From NCBI RefSeq assembly GCF_018861005.1, contig NZ_JAHKQL010000003.1:1-64000 (forward strand): a stretch of DNA of 64,000 nt. Direction: 5' to 3'. Every line of letters starts with the position of its first letter. Position 1 is the stretch's first letter. This document shows positions 45,147 through 56,873 of this stretch, in pieces. This DNA comes from Polaribacter vadi. Lineage in GTDB: Bacteria > Bacteroidota > Bacteroidia > Flavobacteriales > Flavobacteriaceae. A model generated the notes under the pieces. It had not been told where the DNA came from. It made no database searches and saw only the letters and a list, made by a program, of their open reading frames with translations. The position numbers and the translations under genes are program-made.

Positions 45147-45848
45147 CTAACCTAGCCAACCATCTCTATCTAAACTTCTATACTGAATAGCTTCTGCAAT
45201 ATGATCTGGAGAAATAGCATTAACTTTAGCTAAATCTGCTATAGTTCTAGATACTTTTAGAATTCTGTCATAAGCTCTTGCAGAAAGGTTTAGTTTTTCC
45301 ATGGCTGTTTTTAAAAGCGATAAACTTTCTGGTGATAATTTACAGAATTCACGAATCTGTTTTACACTCATTTGTGCATTATAATGTGTGTTTTCAAAAT
45401 CTTTAAAACGATTTGATTGAATCTCTCTAGCTGCTGTAACTCGTTTTCTAATTTCTACGGATGATTCTCCTTTTCTTTCTTCGGATAATTTTTCGAAAGG
45501 AACAGGAGTAACTTCTATATGAATATCAATTCTGTCTAAAAGTGGCCCAGAAATTTTACTCAAATAACGTTGCATTTCTTGTGGAGTAGAAGTCATGGGC
45601 GAATTTGGATCATTAAAAAACCCTGAAGGAGAAGGATTCATACTTGCAACCAACATAAATGAACAAGGATAAGTAACTGTAAATTTAGCTCTAGAAATAG
45701 TAACATCTCTATCTTCCAAAGGCTGACGCATAACTTCTAATACCTCTCTTTTAAATTCGGGTAATTCATCTAAAAATAAAACTCCATTGTGTGACAAAGA
45801 AATTTCACCAGGTCTTGGGTATTGGCCTCCACCAACTAAAGCTACATT
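45147..45848 (-). pseudogene. comM: comM, 3' part (disrupted by a 7-kb element)
   Basis: C-terminal ~233 codons of a ComM/YifB AAA+ ATPase. The frame opens at the element border with NVALVGGGQYPRPGEISLS, contains the Walker B block VLFLDELPEF, and ends SLDRDGWLG. Joined to the part at 52846-53682 it gives HHTISN-VALVGGG without gain or loss of a base and a protein of 511 residues, the normal family length. ComM helps branch migration during natural transformation. Without excision of the element this half has no start of its own except a weak internal TTG, and it lacks the Walker A half, so it is inactive as it stands. Confidence 0.92.
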
Positions 45849-45871
45849 CTACATACTATTTAAAAGTGTGG
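45846..45871. repeat. Left attachment site with terminal inverted repeat
   Basis: The host ATT (45846-45848) is followed by an element end reading CTACATACTATTTAAAAGTGTGG. TTTAAAAGTGTGG (45859-45871) recurs inverted at the right end, and with a 2-base gap the match extends to ACTA-TTTAAAAGTGTGG. Half-sites of this kind, with a very short shared core, are usual for large serine integrases. Confidence 0.8.
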
Positions 45872-45881
45872 TAATAATTAT

Positions 45882-46091
45882 TTAGTAATTGTAAACTATG
45901 TTTTCTCCTACTAACTTTGCAATTTTACCAATTTCTATTTCGCTGAAATCGTCAATATAAATTACAACTTTTAAGTTGTTTTTTCTAGCGTAGTCTATAG
46001 ATGTTTCGATTTCATCAGTATTAATGCTTTCATTTAATTTTATTACTCCTTTGTCGTTATTTTCAAAATCTTCAATGCTTAATAATTTCAT
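45882..46091 (-). CDS. Small acidic protein of unknown function in the element
   Basis: A 69-residue protein that starts 22 bp after the serine recombinase stop and ends next to the left attachment site. It is rich in Asp, Glu, Ile and Lys, with no Cys, no signal peptide and no motif I recognise; the middle (NLKVVIYIDDFSEIEIG) suggests an alpha/beta fold. Its place downstream of the integrase makes it a candidate recombination directionality factor or an accessory protein, but that is position-based inference only. Confidence 0.55.
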   Translation of the reverse strand: MKLLSIEDFENNDKGVIKLNESINTDEIETSIDYARKNNLKVVIYIDDFSEIEIGKIAKLVGENIVYNY

Positions 46092-46113
46092 TTCATTTCA
46101 TTTATTTACTTAT

Positions 46114-47841
46114 TTATTTAAAAAAAGAATTAAAAAAAACATCATTTGAAATTTCTTCTTTTGTATTGAAAACTATAACTTTCTTAGGTGAAATATTATA
46201 TAAATGATTACTAAAATTATTTAAAAGAGTAGGGTTGTCCTCGATTTTAAAAAAAATCTCTATTTTAAATTCCCCAAAATTCTTACCATTTTTAATTACA
46301 ATTTTTTGTATTGAATTAGTAATTATTTTTCTAGCTAATATTGTTTTTTTATTGTTTAACTCTAAGCTGTTAACAGAATCACTTAAGCTTTTTATTTTAT
46401 CCAAACCCTCACTAAACATAGAAATTCCTTTACTAATCAAACTAAAAGATTTAATCTTATAAAAAGTATCAGAAGTTAAAGCATTTTGATTCTTAATTAA
46501 TTCTTCGCTTACTTTATTTTGTTCATTAATATCTTCTTCAATCTCCTTAATTTTCAAATCCAAAACTTCTTTCGAAATTTCACTACCTGCATATAAATCT
46601 AAAATTTTTAAATACTTTTGGTTTAATTTTTCTAACTTTAATTCTACTTGTTTCAACTTTTTAAGATTCTGTTTAAGTTTCATACTGTGGTTTTCCTTAG
46701 TTAGGTTAGTATTTATATAATTATCAATTTCTCTTTTTAAGAATTCTGAATTTTCAAATTCGTTCCAAATTAATTTATTAAGTTTAAAAAGATTTATACC
46801 CCTTGAACCACAATTGGTATGAGTGTGTCTTTTTGAAGTACACCTATATATATATTCTCCTCTGCTAACTTTTATTCTGCCCTCCATATTATTACCACAC
46901 TTACCACATATAAGAAGACCGGCTAGAAGCCTAAAGTATTTGGGAGTTCTTTTTTTTGAAATTGCATTTTGTTTTCTTTTGGAGGCTATTTGGTTAAAAA
47001 CTGTTTTACTAATAATTTTGGGACTTTGAACCTCATTATATAAATTATTTCCTTTTTCATCTACTCCAACCTTAAATTTTCTTACACCATAAAGAATACT
47101 ATTTTTAAACATTTCGTTTATGGTTCCAGGGTTCCATAAATTATCTAGATGAACTAGTTCAATTTCAGAATCTTTAGTAATTTTATTTTTAAATATTATA
47201 GTTTTTGATTTTCTTGTTAAAACCTTTTGTTTATTCAATATGTTAGCAATTTTGTTAGTACCCCAATTATTTTTTAAATACCAATCAACAATTTGGTGCA
47301 TAACTTTTACCTCTTCCTTATTCAAACTTAAAGTATTGTCCTCATTTTTTTTATAACCATAAGGAATATTTGGTTTTGTATAAATTCCCTTTCGATTTGC
47401 AGAAATATTACCCATTTTAAATCTATTAACTCTGGTTGCATTGTCGTGTTGTGCAACTACTTTCATTAAGTCAAAAATAAATTGGTCTTGGGTATTTTGA
47501 AAATTGTATTTTCCGTTACTAGTAAATAATGTTACCCTTTTTTCCTGCAATATATTACTAAGATAAGCTTGGCTAATTTGATTACGACTTAAACGTGTAA
47601 TATCAAAAGCATATAAGTATTTTATTTTACCTGATTTTATTAGTTCTAAAATAGAAGAGTAAATAGGTCTATTAGTTAAATCTTCATAACTAGCACTTTT
47701 TCCTAATTCTTTATGCACAATAAATCGAAGATTATGTTTTTCAGCAATTTTTTTTCCAATTATAATTTGTTCATCAATAGACAAATCCTTTTCGACTTGT
47801 TGTTTAGTGCTTACTCTAGCATATATATGTAATTTTTCCAA
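46114..47841 (-). CDS. Large serine recombinase (integrase of the element)
   Basis: A 575-residue site-specific recombinase. The N-terminal resolvase-type catalytic domain (about 1-150) has YARVSTKQQ with the nucleophile Ser11, and DITRLSRNQ. A recombinase domain (about 160-270) starts IPYGYKKNEDNTL. Then come a zinc ribbon (CGKCGNNMEG ... YRCTSKRH ... NCGS, around 310-350) and a coiled coil (about 375-450). This is the full architecture of phage-type large serine integrases. It lies next to the left border, so it is the most likely enzyme for insertion into comM. Confidence 0.93.
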   Translation of the reverse strand: MEKLHIYARVSTKQQVEKDLSIDEQIIIGKKIAEKHNLRFIVHKELGKSASYEDLTNRPIYSSILELIKSGKIKYLYAFDITRLSRNQISQAYLSNILQEKRVTLFTSNGKYNFQNTQDQFIFDLMKVVAQHDNATRVNRFKMGNISANRKGIYTKPNIPYGYKKNEDNTLSLNKEEVKVMHQIVDWYLKNNWGTNKIANILNKQKVLTRKSKTIIFKNKITKDSEIELVHLDNLWNPGTINEMFKNSILYGVRKFKVGVDEKGNNLYNEVQSPKIISKTVFNQIASKRKQNAISKKRTPKYFRLLAGLLICGKCGNNMEGRIKVSRGEYIYRCTSKRHTHTNCGSRGINLFKLNKLIWNEFENSEFLKREIDNYINTNLTKENHSMKLKQNLKKLKQVELKLEKLNQKYLKILDLYAGSEISKEVLDLKIKEIEEDINEQNKVSEELIKNQNALTSDTFYKIKSFSLISKGISMFSEGLDKIKSLSDSVNSLELNNKKTILARKIITNSIQKIVIKNGKNFGEFKIEIFFKIEDNPTLLNNFSNHLYNISPKKVIVFNTKEEISNDVFFNSFFK

Positions 47842-47907
47842 AATTTATAGAATTTAAAATTATACTAGTTAAAAGAAAAAAAGAAAAAAATGTTTTTTTT
47901 TAAAAGG

Positions 47908-47942
47908 TTTTGGTTTAGGTTTTATAAAAAGTTAAACCAAAA
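47908..47942. repeat. Inverted repeat between the two recombinase genes
   Basis: TTTTGGTTTA (47908-47917) and TAAACCAAAA (47933-47942) are exact reverse complements separated by 15 bp. They lie in the 134-bp gap upstream of the serine recombinase start. There is no T-tract on either side, so an operator or recombination site is more likely than a terminator. Confidence 0.45.
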
Positions 47943-47975
47943 AAAACAAAAGTTTTGTTTATATAATAAATTGTA

Positions 47976-48542
47976 TTATAAATTTAAATAGATTTCTGCG
48001 ATCTCCTCTTGTTTAATCCCTAGGTAAATTCTTGTAATAGAAGGACAAGAATGATTAAAAATACTACTAAGAATCATTAAGGCTTCGTCAGTTTTACCTA
48101 AATTTTCATAAACACGTCTCCCAAATGTTTTCCTAAGAGAATGCGAACTAATATTTCCACTGCAACAAATATTAAAATCTTTACAAGCTTTTCTTAAAGA
48201 AGAATTTACATATTGTAAACTAATAACTTTAGAATTATATCTATTTAAAAACACAAAATCCAAATTACAAGTACCAAACGAATCATAAGAACTTAAAATT
48301 AAACTTTTTAAAACAGGATTTAAAGTAATATGACGAACTTTAGAAGTTTTTTGTTCAGGTAGCAAAATAAAATCGACATTTAAAATTTGAAACCATCTTA
48401 AGTTTAAAATGTCGCCAATCCTTAATCCAGTAAATACCCCAAAACCTACTATTAATGAAATTTTAGGAAGCTTAACCTTTAAATTAGAAATTAAAAAAAT
48501 AGCATCGTTAAAATTAAAATAACCAGATGTATAACTTTTCAT
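47976..48542 (-). CDS. Minimal tyrosine recombinase
   Basis: A 188-residue protein holding only the catalytic domain of tyrosine recombinases. All active-site positions are visible: Arg41 (TGLRIGD), Lys68 (or Lys65) in the beta-hairpin, His134 and Arg137 (HSLRKTFG), His164 (FNHSCPS) and Tyr173 (RIYLG). The usual N-terminal core-binding domain is absent, the length resembling that of FimB/FimE-type invertases. It could resolve multimers of a circular form or control an invertible site; no obvious invertible segment is seen in the element. Confidence 0.88.
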   Translation of the reverse strand: MKSYTSGYFNFNDAIFLISNLKVKLPKISLIVGFGVFTGLRIGDILNLRWFQILNVDFILLPEQKTSKVRHITLNPVLKSLILSSYDSFGTCNLDFVFLNRYNSKVISLQYVNSSLRKACKDFNICCSGNISSHSLRKTFGRRVYENLGKTDEALMILSSIFNHSCPSITRIYLGIKQEEIAEIYLNL

Positions 48543-48724
48543 TGTAATGTCTTTCTTAAAATTATAAAAAAATAACTAGAAATTAAAAGATAAAAATTAA
48601 AATTATCTAGAAAGTAATTTTTTTACATATATATCTTCTACGAGAATCCTGTAATTGTGTCTTAATTAATGGTTTAAAAAAAACAAATTCATTGTAAACT
48701 TTTTATAAGAGAAAATTATACACA

Positions 48725-50113
48725 ATGAATTATATGTTACCTGAATCTTCAATTAAAGAGTTAAAAAGTTTAATTGAATTAAGAAATGAAAAACACACAA
48801 CACAAAAGCTAAAAATAGAATATGCCTATATGATTTATGGGTTCATAATTAATATTATAATGTTTAATAAAAAAAATGGAATTGAAGGTTCTGTCTCAAT
48901 TCACTCTGAAGCATTAAAAAAAATATATTCAAGATATTACTTATATACTAACTTTCTCGTTAAAATGAATTTCTTGTACAAGAAAAATTATTACAAACCA
49001 AAAGGGAAAACAAATGAATATGATATACATCATAGATTTTATAGTGATAAGTTTGAAATGGTTAAGAAAGAAAAAAGAGTTAAAATTGACTATAAGGATA
49101 TGTATAATTCTTCAAAACATTTAAAACCATATTTATTTCTAATAGAAAATTTTAAAAATTTAAATTTTGAAACAAAAAAAGCTTTAGAATATACGGTTAA
49201 ATTACATACTGATAATAAAATAAATAACTCACAATTTTTATATTATAATTATAGGATAGCTAAAATTGACTCTAAAAATTTTGACTTTAAAAGACCTGTC
49301 ACTGATAAAAGATTTCATTCAACACTAACAAATACACCAAAGCAACTAAGAAAGTTCTTTAAATGTAATAAAAAGAACCTTTTTAACTTAGATTTAAAAA
49401 ATTCACAACCATTTTTTTTGGCTGCTATTCTTCATTTAATAATAAATAAAGATTTACAAGTTTTGGAGAATCTTAAAGCGGTATTATTAAAAGTAAAAAG
49501 TAAAAAGTCAGATATACCCTATAATTATTATAAAATAATAAAAAGTTTGATGGCTAGAGAATTTTTGGAATCGGAAATAACAGAAATAAACTCTTTTATT
49601 CAATCAACCTGTAAAGGTGAGTTTTATGAGTATTTATTAAAGAATTTAAATTTTAAAAGAGACGAAAATAATAATATTTATAATTACAAATATTCTGCAC
49701 AAAAAAAGATTCGAGAAATAAAATATTATAATAAAAATGAAGAAGATTTTTTAAATAAAAGAGATTATGCCAAAAATGCTGCTTTTCAAGTTTTTTTTTC
49801 ATCTGCAAAAACAAAAGATTCTGATGCCTTACAATTAAAAAAAACCTTACCTACAGTTTGGGATATAACTAAAGTTTTAAAGGGAGAGTATTCAAGTAAT
49901 TTTGCTGTTTTGTTACAAAATATTGAAAGTTATATAATTTTAGATTTATGTTCAAAAAAGATTAATAAAACGTTAAAAGCGAATATTTACACTATACATG
50001 ATAGCATTGCAACTATAAATGAATTCGTTATAGATATTAAAGATATTATTATAAATGTTACTAAAGAAACATTAAAGATTACTCCAACAATTGAGGTTGA
50101 AGAATGGGTTTAA
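48725..50113 (+). CDS. Divergent family A-like polymerase (TV-Pol-like)
   Basis: A 462-residue protein, the only plus-strand gene of the element. Three blocks fit the palm/fingers motifs of superfamily A polymerases: motif A NLDLKNSQPFF (Asp223), motif B Arg346-x3-Lys350-x6-Phe-Phe in KRDYAKNAAFQVFFS, and motif C IHDS (His425-Asp426-Ser427). The block HSTLTNTPKQLRKFF precedes motif A. No 3'-5' exonuclease domain is seen; the N-terminal 180 residues may be a DNA-binding or priming region. This fits the transposon/virus polymerase (TV-Pol) family described for mobile elements and small DNA viruses, proposed to act as primase-polymerase. The assignment is by motif only. Confidence 0.72.
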   Translation: MNYMLPESSIKELKSLIELRNEKHTTQKLKIEYAYMIYGFIINIIMFNKKNGIEGSVSIHSEALKKIYSRYYLYTNFLVKMNFLYKKNYYKPKGKTNEYDIHHRFYSDKFEMVKKEKRVKIDYKDMYNSSKHLKPYLFLIENFKNLNFETKKALEYTVKLHTDNKINNSQFLYYNYRIAKIDSKNFDFKRPVTDKRFHSTLTNTPKQLRKFFKCNKKNLFNLDLKNSQPFFLAAILHLIINKDLQVLENLKAVLLKVKSKKSDIPYNYYKIIKSLMAREFLESEITEINSFIQSTCKGEFYEYLLKNLNFKRDENNNIYNYKYSAQKKIREIKYYNKNEEDFLNKRDYAKNAAFQVFFSSAKTKDSDALQLKKTLPTVWDITKVLKGEYSSNFAVLLQNIESYIILDLCSKKINKTLKANIYTIHDSIATINEFVIDIKDIIINVTKETLKITPTIEVEEWV

Positions 50114-50138
50114 AGATAGCTTTAACGATATAAACAAA

Positions 50139-51152
50139 TTAGTTCATATTAACTATAAATTCTTTTTGAGGGTCTTCAAATAACCATACTTTGCTTTTGT
50201 CTGCTAAGTTTTTATTTGAAGACTGTCTTCTTGCGAAATCTTTCCAATTTAAATATGTTGTGGTAGCACCTCCAAAATTTAAGTTAGATTTAGCACAAAT
50301 ATTATTTAATGAACTCATTTTATGCTCATCTACTTCACCGTCGCTTGTAACTGCTTCAATAAACCATAGTTCTTTTGTTTTTGGATTAATGAAAATAGCA
50401 TCGGGAAATGCATCTTCAATTCCCAAAGAAATACCATAAGATTCCATTAATTTTTTTTCCTCTTCGCTTATTCTGTCTCCATCAGAATCATCCTTGTAAA
50501 CTAGTATAAAATCTGGTAAAAAATGCTTAGCATATAAATTAATAGACATTTGAATTAAAAACTCATGTCCTGAACTTTCTTGCAATATCTTTTCTTTATT
50601 AAATGCTTCTAGCTGTATTTCCAATCGAGTACGTTTGGAATCTTCTTTTATCCAATTTTGTAATTTATTATTAAGTTCATCTTTAGATTTTATTTTTAAA
50701 ATATCTCTAAAATCAGAGTTTAACCTATAACAACTATTAGGAGATTTGGCTTTTATATGACCATTTTTAAAAGTACTAGATTTTGAATCATATGTATAAG
50801 CCTCTATTGCTCCTAACTCCTTTAATGGTTTTATCCAATAATCTCTTCCTTCCCTATCTAATTTGTTTCTCCCTCTTAAAAAAATCCCTACATAACAAGC
50901 TAGATGTGCTGTTGTAGCACCATCAGAGAATTTAAACTTGTTTTTGGTACTACTAAATAAAGAATTTAGATTGTTATCTAATAAAGCAAATACAATTTCT
51001 GTTAAATCTAGTGTATAAAGATCAATTTTTTTTAGAACACAAGCAATATCAATTCTACTAATTCCTTGAAGTTTAGTTGGGACTAAATATTTTTTCTCTT
51101 TGGATAAACGTTTAAAATACTCATCTATTTTTTCACCTTTTTTCTTAATCAT
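50139..51152 (-). CDS. Type II restriction endonuclease, BsuBI/PstI family
   Basis: A 337-residue protein. The C-terminal third has the BsuBI/PstI-type nuclease core: FPDAIFINP (Asp251) followed by LWFIEAVTSDG (Glu266) and a Lys-rich helix, a variant of the PD-(D/E)xK arrangement. The N-terminal part (about 1-150) resembles the helical recognition domain of the family (ARRYVGIF-like block ACYVGIFLRGRNKL). Known members cut CTGCAG; the same specificity here is likely but unproven. The partner methyltransferase lies 62 bp upstream in the same direction. Confidence 0.88.
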   Translation of the reverse strand: MIKKKGEKIDEYFKRLSKEKKYLVPTKLQGISRIDIACVLKKIDLYTLDLTEIVFALLDNNLNSLFSSTKNKFKFSDGATTAHLACYVGIFLRGRNKLDREGRDYWIKPLKELGAIEAYTYDSKSSTFKNGHIKAKSPNSCYRLNSDFRDILKIKSKDELNNKLQNWIKEDSKRTRLEIQLEAFNKEKILQESSGHEFLIQMSINLYAKHFLPDFILVYKDDSDGDRISEEEKKLMESYGISLGIEDAFPDAIFINPKTKELWFIEAVTSDGEVDEHKMSSLNNICAKSNLNFGGATTTYLNWKDFARRQSSNKNLADKSKVWLFEDPQKEFIVNMN

Positions 51153-51214
51153 TTAATTTTGCTTTACAAGTTTTTGTAAAACAAACATAATCAAATTACT
51201 AAAGGTTTGAAAGT

Positions 51215-52717
51215 TTAAATGCTGTCTAAAATAGTTTCAATTTTTAAATTTAAATCTTCCATAGATTTATAATTTAGTTCACCAATTTCTATAATAGTTT
51301 TCTTATTAGGGAATGGAATGTTTTTTAATTCAGTTGCACTTACTTGTGTATTTCCATTAAAAATTGAGAAATAATTATCATATATATTAGTATTTAATAA
51401 ATGACTAATTCCTTTAGTCATGTATTTACTTAGTTTGATTTCTTTGGAATAAATATAGTTTAACTTGTTTTCAAAGCCGAATCTATCAAAGTTGTAATCA
51501 TCTTTTAACAAAGGAGCAGCAATTATCCTTCTCTCATCATCTTTTGTGCTAAACCTCCTAACAAGAATATAATTATCATTAGCTCTTAATTGTTTTTCAA
51601 TTTTAGAATCTAATATCAAACTTTGTTTATTAAATTTTGATTTTATAGGAAATTCGATGTAACCATGCATAACATTATTAAGCCAAATTAAAGGAACTAA
51701 TTTTTCACTATAACTAGTTAAATTAGGTTTACTTCTAAAGTTAACTACTGGTCCAGTCGAGACTGTTAATTTAAAATCTGCTAATAAATTTTTAAATTTT
51801 TTAAAATAATTAATTAAATATTCATCTTGGTTAGAAGTTGGTAAAAACAGAAAATAGTGCTTAGAATGTAAATCAATTAGATAATCAATACTGTAAAGTC
51901 TAAAGTTATTTTTAGATAAGTCTTTAATCCCTTCACTTGTAGTAATTCTAACTTTATATGTTTCATTATGTATTTTTGGTACAGCCATATAGATTAAGTT
52001 TTCTTGGAGTACTTTTTCTTCTTTGAAAGCTTTTTTTCTTGATTTAAATAAATGAATTTTTTCAATTTTTAAATTTTTAAATAAGAACTCTCTATATTTT
52101 TCAAAATATACACCAGATGCAAAACTTCTTGGTATAATAAATACTGTTTGACCCTTAGGTTTTAGTAGTAATGCACTAATAGCAGAAAAAGCTGCGTAAA
52201 TATTAGTAATTTTTAATACACTTACTAATTTAGTTAGAGGATTTGTTTTGTTTAATTTAAAATACGGAGGGTTACTAATAATTAAATCATATTTTGCAGT
52301 TTTAAACGAACTATTTTTGTTTAAAACTTTGTGATTCAGAGTAACAAAATCTTCTTGAATAATATTAAATGCAAAATTTATACCTTTTTCAGAACATTTT
52401 TCTTTTAGGGAAGTCAAGTTTGTGTTTAAAATATTGGCAACTTTTTTATCAATTTCATAAGCAGTCAAACATATTTCTAATTTTTCATTTAAACTTGAAA
52501 GTATGTGTTCAATTAGACTTATAGAAAGTGTTCCAGTTCCTGCACCCGGATCCAAAATAGAAATATTTTTCCCTAAATTTTCAATATTAAACAAACTAGA
52601 CATAAAATGAGATACTTCATGTGGAGTAAAATATTGACCAAAACATTTTTTGTGTTCTTCATTAGTGTCTTGTCTATATACAACAGCAGATTCAACAGCT
52701 TTTTCTAGTACTTTCAT
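51215..52717 (-). CDS. N6-adenine DNA methyltransferase of the RM pair
   Basis: A 500-residue methyltransferase. The order is GQYFTPHEVSHFM (about 27-39), the AdoMet-binding motif I ILDPGAGTG (Asp56-Gly62), and the catalytic motif IV NPPY at 149-152, with a target-recognition region in the C-terminal half. This order (I before IV, N-terminal GQYFTP) is that of gamma-type N6-adenine methyltransferases such as M.PstI. It protects the host from the endonuclease downstream. It is the first gene from the right border. Confidence 0.92.
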   Translation of the reverse strand: MKVLEKAVESAVVYRQDTNEEHKKCFGQYFTPHEVSHFMSSLFNIENLGKNISILDPGAGTGTLSISLIEHILSSLNEKLEICLTAYEIDKKVANILNTNLTSLKEKCSEKGINFAFNIIQEDFVTLNHKVLNKNSSFKTAKYDLIISNPPYFKLNKTNPLTKLVSVLKITNIYAAFSAISALLLKPKGQTVFIIPRSFASGVYFEKYREFLFKNLKIEKIHLFKSRKKAFKEEKVLQENLIYMAVPKIHNETYKVRITTSEGIKDLSKNNFRLYSIDYLIDLHSKHYFLFLPTSNQDEYLINYFKKFKNLLADFKLTVSTGPVVNFRSKPNLTSYSEKLVPLIWLNNVMHGYIEFPIKSKFNKQSLILDSKIEKQLRANDNYILVRRFSTKDDERRIIAAPLLKDDYNFDRFGFENKLNYIYSKEIKLSKYMTKGISHLLNTNIYDNYFSIFNGNTQVSATELKNIPFPNKKTIIEIGELNYKSMEDLNLKIETILDSI

Positions 52718-52727
52718 TAATTATGTT

Positions 52728-52807
52728 AACCTTAAATTTATTCGATACAAACTAAACAAATTTAAATTAAATATAATGATTAATACTTCGATATTAAACT
52801 TAAGGTT
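52728..52807. repeat. Inverted repeat upstream of the methyltransferase gene
   Basis: AACCTTAAATTTA (52728-52740) and TAAACTTAAGGTT (52795-52807) are reverse complements in 12 of 13 positions. They flank the only promoter space of the RM operon, so they may be a control site; alternatively they extend the right attachment region, which starts 17 bp further on. Confidence 0.45.
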
Positions 52808-52823
52808 TGTGGTATTTAAAATT

Positions 52824-52848
52824 CCACACTTTTAAACATAGTCTTATT
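52824..52848. repeat. Right attachment site with terminal inverted repeat
   Basis: CCACACTTTTAAA (52824-52836) is the exact inverse of TTTAAAAGTGTGG at the left end. CATAGTCTT follows, then the host ATT (52846-52848), where the comM frame (TISN) resumes. Confidence 0.8.
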
Positions 52849-53682
52849 TGATATTGTGTGATGAGGACTTCTAAATGGTCTTTGATATAATAACCCGTTA
52901 TTTTTTGTTTTACCAACTACAGAATGAATTTTAGTGGTTTCTAAAGCTTCGTGTAAAGTCATTGGTGGTAAAATACTTGGTAATCTTTTTGCTAACATTG
53001 TTTTCCCAGATCCTGGAGGACCTATTAAAATAATGTTATGACCACCTGCTGCTGCAATTTCCATACAACGTTTTATAGATTCTTGCCCTTTTACATCAGA
53101 AAAATCGAATTCTGGAAAATCTATGTTTTTATAAAACTCAGCTCTTGTATCAACAATGGTGGGTTCAATTTTGTCATCACCATTAAAATGATTAATTACC
53201 TCTAAAATATTATCAACTCCTAAAACTTCTAAATCGTTAACAATGGCAGCTTCTTTGGCGTTTTCTTTGGGTAAAATAAAATATTTAAAACCTTCTTCTC
53301 TGGCTTTTATAGCCATTGGTAAAACCCCTCTTATGGGTTGTAAACTTCCATCCAAAGAAAGTTCGCCCATAATAATATAATCATCAATATTTTCTGATTT
53401 TATTTGATTTGAGGCTGCAAGAATTCCGACAGCTAAAGTTAAATCATAGGAAGCACCTTCTTTTCTGATATCTGCAGGAGCCATATTTATGATAATTTTT
53501 TTACCAGGAAGTTTGTAAGAATTATTGTTTAAGGCTGCAGAAATTCTGTAAGAACTTTCGCTAACGGCTTTGTCTGGTAAGCCAACAAGATGATAGCCTA
53601 TACCTTTGTCTATGTTAACTTCTACAGTAATTGTTGTAGCTTCAATTCCAAAAACAGCAGATCCAAAAACTTTAACGAGCAT
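52846..53682 (-). pseudogene. comM: comM, 5' part (disrupted by a 7-kb element)
   Basis: N-terminal 279 codons of ComM/YifB: MLVKVFGSAVFGIEA, the N-terminal ChlI-type domain, SFDVKGQE-like block (FDFSDVKGQESIKRCMEIAAAG) and the Walker A motif GPPGSGKTMLAKRL near residue 217. The native frame ends at HHTISN, where the element begins; read-through adds nine element-coded residues (ending FKSVEF) before a stop. Walker B lies on the other side of the insert. Upstream, only 29 bp separate its start from the ELWxxDGT gene, which has displaced its original upstream region. Confidence 0.93.
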
Positions 53683-53711: not shown

Positions 53712-56681
53712 TTACTCAATTATAAGTTTTTGTGTCAATTTTTTATTGTCGGAAATAATTTCTAAAAAGTAAATTCCTTTAGTTAAGTTATTTACATTAA
53801 GTTTTGTTTCTAGTGTATTTTCAATATGTTTTTTAATAATAAGATTACCTCTTATATCGTAAATATTTAATTTATTAAACCACTTACCACTTTTAATGTT
53901 AATAAAACTATTTGAAGGGTTAGGGTGGATGCTTATTTTATTTAATTTATCAGTACTTTGAAAAGTATGTAAATTTAATACTGATAAATTAGGAGTCATT
54001 ACAAAAAGTTCTTCTCCACTTAAATCTGTACGTCCAGAAAAATAAAGATTATCACCACTAGATGTTAAATTGTATTTATAAGAATATTCACTTAAACTAT
54101 CATCATTTGTAATTACAATATTTAGCGATTTTGGTTCATTTAAATTATCGTTAAGGTATTTTATTTCATTATTATCAGTAGTATAAAATAGGTTGTTTTT
54201 ATGACATTCAAATAGTGAACTATTTAAAGAGCTATCAATGTCTAATTTTTCTGTAATGTTACCATCCGTTCTCCATAATTCAGGTACATTTGTATACCAA
54301 TAATCTGTTATTGTAAAATAAATATATTTACCGCATTTAATTAAATTTTCAATTGATACAGTAGATATTGTTGGGTGATTTAGGCCTTCATAAAGTAATT
54401 TTGTTCCATTTGCTGTTCCATCTGTTTTATACAATCCATACCTATTGCTAATATCTTTTAATCTAGAAATAAAAAATAATTCATTATTTAATGTGATATT
54501 CGTATTTATGTTTAAATATGATGGTAAATCTGAAAGTGTTGTGCCGTTTGTTGTTCCATCTGAGATCCAGTAACCTCCAGAAGAATTATTAATTAAAAGT
54601 TTATTGTTAATTTTATTTATATAACCTATGCCAGAATATGTAGTAAAAACAATTTCTGTACCAGATTGTGTACCATCTGTTTTCCATAGCGAAGAATTAG
54701 ATGGGATATTTGCATTAAAATATATGTAACCATTTAATTCAGTAAAATACATTGAATTACTAGAGCCTCCTTCTGCATTATACCCTGTACCATTTCCGAC
54801 TGTATTTATATCTTTTAGCATAAATGTACCTTGTTCTGAACCATTACTTACCCAAGGTTCAAAGCCATGAACGCCATCATTAGCAGAAAAATATACTTTA
54901 TTATCTGATGCATAGAAATATTGCTTATTGTTATGATTTCTTAAACTACTACCATCAGATCTTATATCTTTAATCATAAATGTACCTTCTTCAGTACCAT
55001 CACTAATCCAAGGTTCGTATCCATTAGAATTATCATGAGCACTAAAAAACAATTTATTATTTATAACAACTGTTTCAGATAAATCATCGATGTTGGAGTT
55101 TTCACCAATCCTTTTAACCATGATAGTTCCATTTATTGTTCCATCACTAGAGAATAGTTGGTTCCCAAATTCTTGTTCATTAGAGCCTCTAAAGAAAACT
55201 TTTCCATTTACATCTGTGAGTTTAGCTGGAGCACTACTAGTTGAATAATTTAAATCTTTGAAGAAATTTGTTCCTTGAAGAGTACCATCAGTTACAAATA
55301 ATTCATTTCCGTTTTTTTGGTTTTTTCCTGAAAAAAAAGTTTTATCATTGAAAGTACAGAAATATTCTTGAGTAGATGAGGTATTTGGGGTTTCTACATT
55401 GGGTATTTGTATTGTGCCATTTTCAGTTCCGTCAGAAACCCAGAGTATTCTCTGGTTAGAATTAGTACTTGTTGTATAAAAAAGAATCTTATCATTTGAT
55501 TCATCAACATGGATTTTTTCAATCCAAACAGATGCCTCTCCTTCATTTATATCCTTTACTAATTTTGTTCCGTCTTCAGTACCGTCACTTGTCCATATTT
55601 CTGTTCCATGAATATTATCATTACCTAAAAAATAAATTTTATTATTTAATTTTTTAAAAATATTGTTATAAGATAACCCGTTAAAATTAGATTTATCGAT
55701 GTTTTTTACTAATGTAGTACCAGCCTCAGTTCCATCACTTTTCCATAATTCAGCACCATTAATACCATCATTAGCTGCAAAAAGTAAATTTCCATTTAAT
55801 TCTATTCCTTTAAATTCTGTATTACTAGAAGCTGTTCCGTCTCTAATATCTTTAACCATAACTGTTCCAGTTTCTGTTCCATCACTTCTCCAAAGTTCGT
55901 AACCGTAAAAGGTTGTACCAGTGTAATAATTATCTGATGTTGCATAAAAAAAGAAAAAATCATTAGAGACAATGAAGTTTCCGTTTAAACTACCATTACC
56001 ATTGTTGTTGATATCTTTAACTAAAATAGTACCGGCTTCAGTTCCATCACTTTTCCATAACTCTTTCCCATGAGTTCCATCATCTGCTGAAAAATAAAGA
56101 AAATTATTAAAAACAAATAAATTAAATGGAGAACTATTACCATTTGTATTTATATCCTTTACCAAATTAGTCCCTTCTTCTGTGCCATCACTAACCCATA
56201 ATTCGTAGCCATTTACACCATCTGTTGCATTAAAATAAACTTTATTATTAAAAGCTACTAAATTACGTGGTGGATTGTAGGTGCTAGAATTATTAGATTT
56301 GATATCTTTCACTAAAACAGTACCCTCTTCAGTTCCATTACTTTTCCATAATTCTGTTCCATGAATTCCATCGTTTGCCGTAAAAAAAAGAATATTATTT
56401 AAAATAGTAAATGAATTTGGACTAGAAGAATTACTCCCTTGATTAATATCTTTTATTTTATAGGTTCCGTCTAAAGTTCCATCAGAAAACCATAGTTCTC
56501 TTCCAAAATTATCAAAATATCCATCTGTAGCTGTAAAATAAAATCCAGATTGTGATGCAATTAAGTTTTGTGGATGACTATCTTCTTGAAAATTTAATTC
56601 AATTTTAGTAGCTTCGATAGATTGGCCAAATGAAATTTGAAGATTTAAAATAAATAAAAATATTAAGTATGTTTTTTTCAT
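53712..56681 (-). CDS. T9SS-secreted ELWxxDGT-repeat protein
   Basis: A 989-residue protein with a signal peptide ending LQISFGQ. It has more than ten repeats of about 45-60 residues with the core G-x-E-L-W-x-(S/T)-D-G-T-x-x-G-T-x-L-V-K-D-I, a beta-propeller-like repeat of surface and secreted proteins. The C-terminal ~75 residues are a T9SS type A sorting domain (IHPNPSNSFINIKSG to GIYFLEIISDNK). Its role is unknown; many such proteins are probable adhesins or binding proteins. It is framed by comM on one side and by a copy of the comM 5' end on the other, so it entered as an insertion. Confidence 0.85.
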   Translation of the reverse strand: MKKTYLIFLFILNLQISFGQSIEATKIELNFQEDSHPQNLIASQSGFYFTATDGYFDNFGRELWFSDGTLDGTYKIKDINQGSNSSSPNSFTILNNILFFTANDGIHGTELWKSNGTEEGTVLVKDIKSNNSSTYNPPRNLVAFNNKVYFNATDGVNGYELWVSDGTEEGTNLVKDINTNGNSSPFNLFVFNNFLYFSADDGTHGKELWKSDGTEAGTILVKDINNNGNGSLNGNFIVSNDFFFFYATSDNYYTGTTFYGYELWRSDGTETGTVMVKDIRDGTASSNTEFKGIELNGNLLFAANDGINGAELWKSDGTEAGTTLVKNIDKSNFNGLSYNNIFKKLNNKIYFLGNDNIHGTEIWTSDGTEDGTKLVKDINEGEASVWIEKIHVDESNDKILFYTTSTNSNQRILWVSDGTENGTIQIPNVETPNTSSTQEYFCTFNDKTFFSGKNQKNGNELFVTDGTLQGTNFFKDLNYSTSSAPAKLTDVNGKVFFRGSNEQEFGNQLFSSDGTINGTIMVKRIGENSNIDDLSETVVINNKLFFSAHDNSNGYEPWISDGTEEGTFMIKDIRSDGSSLRNHNNKQYFYASDNKVYFSANDGVHGFEPWVSNGSEQGTFMLKDINTVGNGTGYNAEGGSSNSMYFTELNGYIYFNANIPSNSSLWKTDGTQSGTEIVFTTYSGIGYINKINNKLLINNSSGGYWISDGTTNGTTLSDLPSYLNINTNITLNNELFFISRLKDISNRYGLYKTDGTANGTKLLYEGLNHPTISTVSIENLIKCGKYIYFTITDYWYTNVPELWRTDGNITEKLDIDSSLNSSLFECHKNNLFYTTDNNEIKYLNDNLNEPKSLNIVITNDDSLSEYSYKYNLTSSGDNLYFSGRTDLSGEELFVMTPNLSVLNLHTFQSTDKLNKISIHPNPSNSFINIKSGKWFNKLNIYDIRGNLIIKKHIENTLETKLNVNNLTKGIYFLEIISDNKKLTQKLIIE

Positions 56682-56705
56682 AGTCTTTATTTTACCAAGT
56701 AGTTT

Positions 56706-56873
56706 CTAAGATTCGTTGTTTAAGGCTGCAGAAATTCTGTAAGAACTTTCGCTAACGGCTTTGTCTGGTAAGCCAATAAGATGATAGCATATACCTTTGT
56801 TTATGTTAACTTCTACAGTAATTGTTGTAGCTTCAATTCCAAAAACAGCAGATCCAAAAACTTTAACGAGCAT
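56706..56873 (-). pseudogene. Duplicated comM 5' end (55 codons)
   Basis: The first ~53 codons of comM and about 25 bp of its leader are repeated here with only three base changes and one T indel against 53526-53707. The frame then reaches a stop (NNES-stop). All three base changes alter the protein (Asp to Asn, Gly to Cys, Val to Ile), as expected for a copy free of selection. This copy probably keeps the ancestral position of the comM start next to ppc. Confidence 0.9.

Follow-up and report, generated by a model that had tools for sequence, protein, structure and literature searches.

Polymerases of the TV-Pol group were named by Iyer, Abhiman and Aravind in 2008 and were described from mobile elements of bacteria, including Flavobacteriales, that carry gamma-delta resolvase or lambda integrase genes and occupy hot spots with restriction-modification (RM) operons (PMC2579912); a primase-polymerase activity was predicted for them. 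CcPol of SCCmec, placed in TV-Pol in the same 2008 study, has family A polymerase activity and constitutes a primase together with MP; priming depends on MP, and the system works with a helicase (PMC7581432, PMC10061031). CcPol-MP was described in Bacillota, and the term "Bacteroid" is absent from PMC10061031.

Here, a window of 64,000 nucleotides from Polaribacter vadi was analyzed, in which a sequence-only reading had placed a divergent, TV-Pol-like family A polymerase inside an integrative element. Both parts of this assignment were borne out by AlphaFold2 and Foldseek, by conserved motifs and by exact element ends. The same reading had spoken of a little-described class; because TV-Pol mobile elements with these recombinases, in Flavobacteriales and near RM operons, have been in print since 2008 (PMC2579912), the kind of element is already known. 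The locus is probably a small element that is mobilized by a large serine recombinase (LSR) and targets yifB/comM, carries an RM pair as cargo and encodes, as its one replication protein, a TV-Pol-like polymerase with a winged helix.

Ends and insertion site of the element

The element spans positions 45846..52848 (7,000 bp, with a crossover ambiguity of 3 bp, AAT/ATT). Its ends were deduced from the empty site HHTIS(N/D)-(V/I)AL in the uninterrupted yifB of five genomes of the same genus and four of the same order. The host gene yifB/comM (Mg-chelatase family, helicase) is split after the codon ending HHTISN into an N-terminal part (52816..53682, minus strand; ChlI and Mg_chelatase domains), whose last codons run into the element, and a C-terminal part (45147..45797, minus strand; Mg_chelatase C-terminal domains); the two are joined in relatives. 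Up to residue 282 the N-terminal part is 93% identical to the intact yifB of genome G397. The left attachment-site arm, CTACATACTATTTAAAAGTGTGG (45849..45871, plus strand), and the right arm, CCACACTTTTAAACATAGTCTT (52824..52845, plus strand), form an imperfect inverted repeat. Joining the element ends yields an imperfect palindrome in which CCACACTTTTAAA and TTTAAAAGTGTGG flank the AAT/ATT core. This combination of a short core, inverted-repeat arms and an exact gene split is the layout of an LSR attP site. The GC content of the block is ~22-28% versus ~30% in the surroundings. The genome contains one copy of the element, with no sign of a multicopy or excised form. An iteron array was not found inside the element, the internal repeats being AT-rich noise.

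The neighborhood of yifB shows further irregularities. Its first 61 codons recur at 56691-56873 (minus strand), 90% identical and with an internal TAG, upstream of the gene for a secreted ELWxSDGT-repeat protein of 989 aa (53712-56681). This gene is thus flanked by yifB starts, which gives the impression of an insertion that regenerated the 5' end of yifB. In G398, a genome of the same genus, the yifB match ends at residue 244 of 282 (L093/L127), suggesting at the sequence level another, polymerase-free interruption of the gene.

Gene content and recombinases

The element starts with a small minus-strand open reading frame (ORF) of 69 aa (45882..46091) that belongs to no Pfam family. It is followed on the same strand by the gene of a 575-aa LSR with Resolvase, Recombinase and zinc ribbon domains (46114..47841) and by that of a 188-aa tyrosine recombinase comprising the catalytic domain only (47976..48542; Phage_integrase, E 3.9e-14). 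The polymerase gene lies on the plus strand (48725..50113, 462 aa). The cargo consists of two minus-strand genes encoding a BsuBI/PstI-type restriction endonuclease (50139..51152; PF06616, E 6.9e-14) and its partner, an N6-adenine DNA methyltransferase of the Eco57I/N6_Mtase type (51215..52717; PF07669, E 4.4e-16), which together form a type II RM pair. The two recombinases and the RM pair noticed earlier from the sequence thus agree with Pfam.

The two recombinases differ in their relation to the ends. Since the attP arms are inverted repeats in an LSR-type layout, the LSR is likely the integrase of the element; a related LSR in G049 likewise lies in yifB. Of the earlier claim of two recombinases, their presence therefore stood, with the qualification that the attachment sites match the LSR only and that the tyrosine enzyme is accessory; as a candidate integrase the latter was rejected because the sites are LSR-type and its N-terminal domains are missing. 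A further reason was that the genomes with relatives of ~190 aa, 3 of 199 in the family, are not listed with a polymerase match. Such catalytic-domain-only tyrosine recombinases, 38-42% identical, were seen in three other genera (L161-L163).

No helicase or single-stranded DNA-binding protein (SSB) partner was recognized among the ORFs of the element (ORF list and Pfam), and a D5 helicase is absent. Nor did the ORF list contain a same-strand ORF of at least 60 aa adjoining the polymerase gene that could be a candidate OB-fold SSB partner; an 82-aa plus-strand frame (50191-50439) is antisense within the endonuclease gene. The earlier description of a self-replicating element was therefore overstated for these 7 kb. 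Without a recognized MP or helicase, the polymerase would be self-sufficient, borrow host parts or be a relic.

Predicted fold and conserved motifs of the polymerase

An AlphaFold2 model of the 462-aa protein built with 49 sequences reached a pLDDT of 86 and a pTM of 0.85. A comparison of a predicted structure with the family A palm and fingers had been proposed as a check, and it turned out in favor of this fold: every one of the top 50 Foldseek matches in the PDB was a family A polymerase (probability 1.00 and E 1.9e-4 for the best; seven below 0.001), among them apicoplast Pol, Bst, Taq, Aquifex PolI and Pol theta. The TM-scores to these entries were low (0.2-0.3), as may be expected from moved domains and a different N-terminus, and the evidence for the fold is therefore the uniformity of the matches and not close superposition. 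Among viral models, the Foldseek matches included a DNA polymerase I annotated in a marine phage (E 4e-14) and, at a lower rank, the replication protein of the Zamilon virophage, a homologue of the Sputnik TV-Pol. In the model, motif B forms a helix (345-358) and motif C a strand-turn-strand (422-431), a hairpin with R196 (strands 197-199 and 212-214) comes before the palm, and helices 150-162 and 168-182 are placed where the two antiparallel thumb helices would be expected. As claimed before, the protein has no exonuclease domain, according to both Pfam and the model.

Sequence comparisons alone were less informative. Scanning the protein and 23 homologues against Pfam, NCBIfam and PHROGs yielded no consistent match, a PDB sequence search with two profiles gave no credible match, and hhalign against Flavobacteriales PolA was non-significant (E 0.052), with motif C aligned. 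The lack of a Pfam, NCBIfam or informative PHROG match would suit a DNA-binding regulator in which the motifs arose by accident. This reading is largely refuted by the exclusively family A matches in the top 50 and by the invariant motifs, and we regard it as extremely improbable. The predicted fold is thus that of a divergent family A polymerase without an exonuclease domain.

The ORF and the residues named before were as claimed, with D223 in LDLKNSQP, R346-x3-K350-x6-FF and H425-D426-S427. The order of motifs A, B and C of superfamily A was correct; their spacing, described as right, was not, because the R196-D223-R346-D426 gaps of 27/123/80 differ from those of DNA polymerase I (38/49/127 in the host's own PolA). 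Chance does not explain the co-occurrence of the three motifs: of 148 unrelated ORFs with a comparable length, none contained the strict ordered pattern, and shuffling the protein produced it in 0.2% of cases. In 24 homologues retrieved by a whole-protein search without use of a motif, L133, R196, D223, S227, Y301, K350, E401, H425 and D426 were invariant, and R346 was conserved in at least 90%.

Similar values were obtained with a wider set of 82 sequences, which includes some homologues fetched with patterns containing motif A, so that motif A conservation is biased there and free of this bias in the set of 24. In the region of the hairpin arginine and motif A (49310..49411, plus strand), R196, D223 and S227 were found in 81/82 and Q228 in 78/82 sequences. 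Motif B, the O-helix equivalent (49760..49798, plus strand), reads R346-x3-K350-x3-F354-x3-F358 (R 75/82, K 81/82, Y/F at 358 in 76/82), and motif C (49997..50005, plus strand) has H425 and D426 in 79/82 and S427 in 63/82. The two aspartates on whose conservation the assignment had been staked, D223 and D426, are thus kept in 24/24 homologues and in 81/82 and 79/82, respectively, of the wider set. Motif B follows the pattern of the PolI O-helix, which is made up of R754, K758, F762 and Y766. The steric-gate position of PolI is D+5 (Glu710); the equivalent position here is the nearly invariant Gln, which comes after the nearly invariant Ser. The HDS of motif C is as in T7 RNA polymerase and unlike HDE; these differences might relax the choice of sugar. 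TV-Pol is described as having a conserved Asp in the fingers; between residues 230 and 376 of the 82-row alignment, no Asp column was conserved at 85%. The dN/dS values of 0.12-0.16 in seven homologue pairs correspond to purifying selection.

The N-terminal domain

Residues 1-125 (48725..49099, plus strand) were also modeled alone (pLDDT 84) and gave the succession helix, helix, strand, helix, helix, strand, strand. Foldseek of this part found no match below E 0.001. Because the weak matches were largely winged-helix proteins, including DnaD, plasmid Rep initiators and the replication terminator protein (RTP), the predicted structure is probably a winged-helix DNA-binding domain that stands in place of the exonuclease domains. 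It may bind an origin.

Homologues and their gene neighborhood

Homologues of the polymerase were detected in 32 of 397 Flavobacteriaceae genomes at E 0.001 and, by profile, in 13 of 296 genomes across the phylum; the named records belong to Flavobacteriaceae, Weeksellaceae, Hymenobacteraceae, Chitinophagaceae and others. At 19 of 29 Flavobacteriaceae loci, genes for a full-length tyrosine integrase and a short HTH_17 protein lie upstream on the strand of the polymerase, the excisionase-like HTH_17 gene often only 3-15 bp before it. Several of the integrase genes are located beside a tRNA gene, and repeats of the tRNA 3'-end were found at 2 of 15 tRNA-adjacent loci tested, within the sequenced stretches analyzed. 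In a genus-mate (G320), a 40-bp tRNA-Arg repeat bounds a polymerase element of 10.8 kb with genes for an integrase, DUF3871, AAA_24, the polymerase, a cytosine methyltransferase and a possible partner endonuclease. The polymerase of this element (L132, 9523-11580) bears a C-terminal GIY-YIG and NUMOD1 homing-endonuclease-like module and differs in this tail from TV-Pol, which was described without nuclease fusions.

One typical flavobacterial integrase-HTH-polymerase module was encountered on a contig of 4.9 kb that had been assigned to a Methanosarcinaceae archaeon (L038), probably through a binning error. Plasmids gave no tblastn match with the window protein or with the family consensus. 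With the window protein alone, tblastn of phages gave no match and a search of viral contigs no close relatives; the family consensus matched four unannotated records of uncultured phages of 595-735 kb. In these megaphage-size genomes (LR756501, LR756503, LR756504, LR756511), the stretches resemble the hairpin and motif A region of the polymerase.

The conserved coupling with integrase and excisionase-like genes, and not with a helicase, could point to an active family A polymerase that serves integration and excision (gap filling, junction resolving) or repair of the element instead of its replication; the helicase-type families recurring among 98 neighbors were likewise restriction-type. LSR and tyrosine integration, though, leave no gaps to fill, yet the polymerase is kept when the recombinase is swapped. 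It is also present in a whole prophage (see below), and its closest characterized relative primes DNA (PMC7581432). Such a service role is accordingly unlikely.

The downstream cargo is rich in defense genes, namely type I R subunits, a GajB-like helicase, PbeC/DndD-like proteins, DRT UG39 and PDC-S28. PADLOC families were matched by 7 of 10 large downstream proteins, one of them weakly; because size decided which proteins were scanned, the proportion is not a rate of defense richness. Together with the RM pair of the window, this surrounding would also fit a polymerase that is itself an anti-phage component traveling with the RM cargo, comparable to Abi and DRT reverse transcriptases. We consider this very unlikely, since the cargo varies between loci while polymerase, integrase and HTH gene stay in fixed order, and since the polymerase occurs in a prophage and similar stretches occur in megaphage genomes.

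The LSR form in yifB and in a prophage

An LSR of the type in the window was found at E 1e-40 only in the window and in G049 among 349 genomes of the family. In G049 it is encoded 99 bp from the polymerase gene, in an element of ~26 kb that cuts yifB at the same codon and carries a type I restriction subunit and AbiJ as cargo. In Flavobacterium sp. UBA2787 (L070/G696), polymerase and LSR genes lie inside a 37-kb insertion, again at the same yifB codon. With its genes for a portal, a head protease, a tape measure protein and an endolysin, this insertion (G696, C12 ~300370-337500; L180, L181) is a prophage. Its polymerase belongs to the same family as that of the window, and no other replication gene was present among its annotated genes, the annotation being partial. 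In a member of Chitinophagaceae (L067), polymerase and LSR genes abut yifB at approximately residue 216. The LSR form thus uses the same codon in three of four cases (window, G049, G696/L070) and another position in yifB in L067. Every full-length LSR of this kind beside a polymerase was, where placeable, inserted in yifB. Two weaker, partial LSR matches were noted near other polymerases (L040, L159).

In the tree, the polymerases of the window, of G049 and of L067/L070 fell into three separate parts, and those of the window and G049 each stood beside tyrosine-integrase elements, from which it follows that the recombinase was exchanged more than once. The window polymerase is a long branch (1.68; grouping support 96/87) with a best identity of 29%, and it is without the HTH gene and the other neighbor genes common in relatives. 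At three loci (L018, L028, L061), the polymerase gene is split into two ORFs, a sequence pattern that suggests decay in some elements.

The long branch, the missing HTH/X partner genes, the split genes elsewhere and the shortness of the element next to relatives of 26-37 kb in the same site would be in line with a relic of a larger element or phage, whose polymerase would be inactive and whose 7-kb remnant would persist by LSR and RM addiction. The polymerase ORF is full-length, however, with all catalytic residues intact, the other genes of the element are likewise open frames, and the attachment arms are paired; a relic is therefore an improbable explanation.

Proposed replication of the element

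Under the preferred reading of a small LSR-mobile element with a TV-Pol-kind replication protein, excision by the LSR would yield a 7-kb circle. The polymerase would then bind the element DNA via its winged helix and make or extend the first DNA on the opened circle, and a host helicase and the replisome would finish the copy, which the LSR would then re-integrate. The RM pair would protect the host from phages and penalize loss of the element. Polymerase activity, priming, origin binding and circle replication are steps that we infer; CcPol offers the best precedent for them. A bolder version, that of a single-protein replicon, is rather unlikely. In it, an origin-binding winged helix and a primer-independent family A polymerase, joined in one chain, would supply everything needed for replication in a class of Bacteroidota integrative elements and temperate phages. 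These would switch between tyrosine integrases directed at tRNA genes and serine recombinases directed at yifB/comM, and their cargo would be anti-phage defense.

Primases that belong to neither of the two canonical families are rare, and CcPol-MP depends on a second protein. A 7-kb element with exact ends, whose polymerase has a built-in DNA-binding domain and no recognized partner, offers a very simple setting for asking whether a single protein is enough both to initiate DNA and to elongate it. The yifB site, common to small elements and a prophage and to at least three polymerase clades, links polymerase elements and phages to the loss of ComM, a helicase with which other bacteria recombine foreign DNA into their genomes and by which they may thus rid themselves of such elements.

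Comparison with known systems

The window polymerase is likely a member of TV-Pol. It shares with this group an exonuclease-free family A core of ~400-600 aa with the hairpin Arg, two palm Asp and the RxxxK fingers helix, as well as a location in elements with a resolvase or lambda-type integrase near RM operons and members in Flavobacteriales. It differs in that its N-terminal domain is modeled as an alpha/beta winged helix, whereas that of TV-Pol is all-helical, and its element differs by the lack of a D5 helicase and the LSR in yifB. The best match among 164 ORFs of Microcystis phage LMM01 was the transposase-adjacent MAP_030 (E 0.0048, N-terminal domain only), which we infer to be the published LMM01 TV-Pol.

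With the PolA-SSB primases (CcPol-MP), the locus has in common a family A polymerase beside one or more LSRs in an integrative element; CcPol, though, lacks the TV-Pol N-terminal domain (PMC7581432, PMC10061031), and the window element is without a recognized OB-fold partner or helicase. Pipolins, to which the element had been likened, also combine integration, a recombinase, a polymerase and variable cargo, but their piPolB is of family B and that of the window of family A, so that the parallel is an analogy only. The comM islands of Acinetobacter (AbaR and others) reside in the same comM/yifB gene and carry defense cargo; AbaR is Tn7-like, whereas the window element has an LSR and a polymerase (PMC11472951). 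Against this background, two features appear to be new: the LSR/yifB form with exact ends, which recurs in at least three separate polymerase clades and in a prophage, and the integrase-HTH-polymerase gene order in Flavobacteriaceae beside varied, defense-rich cargo.
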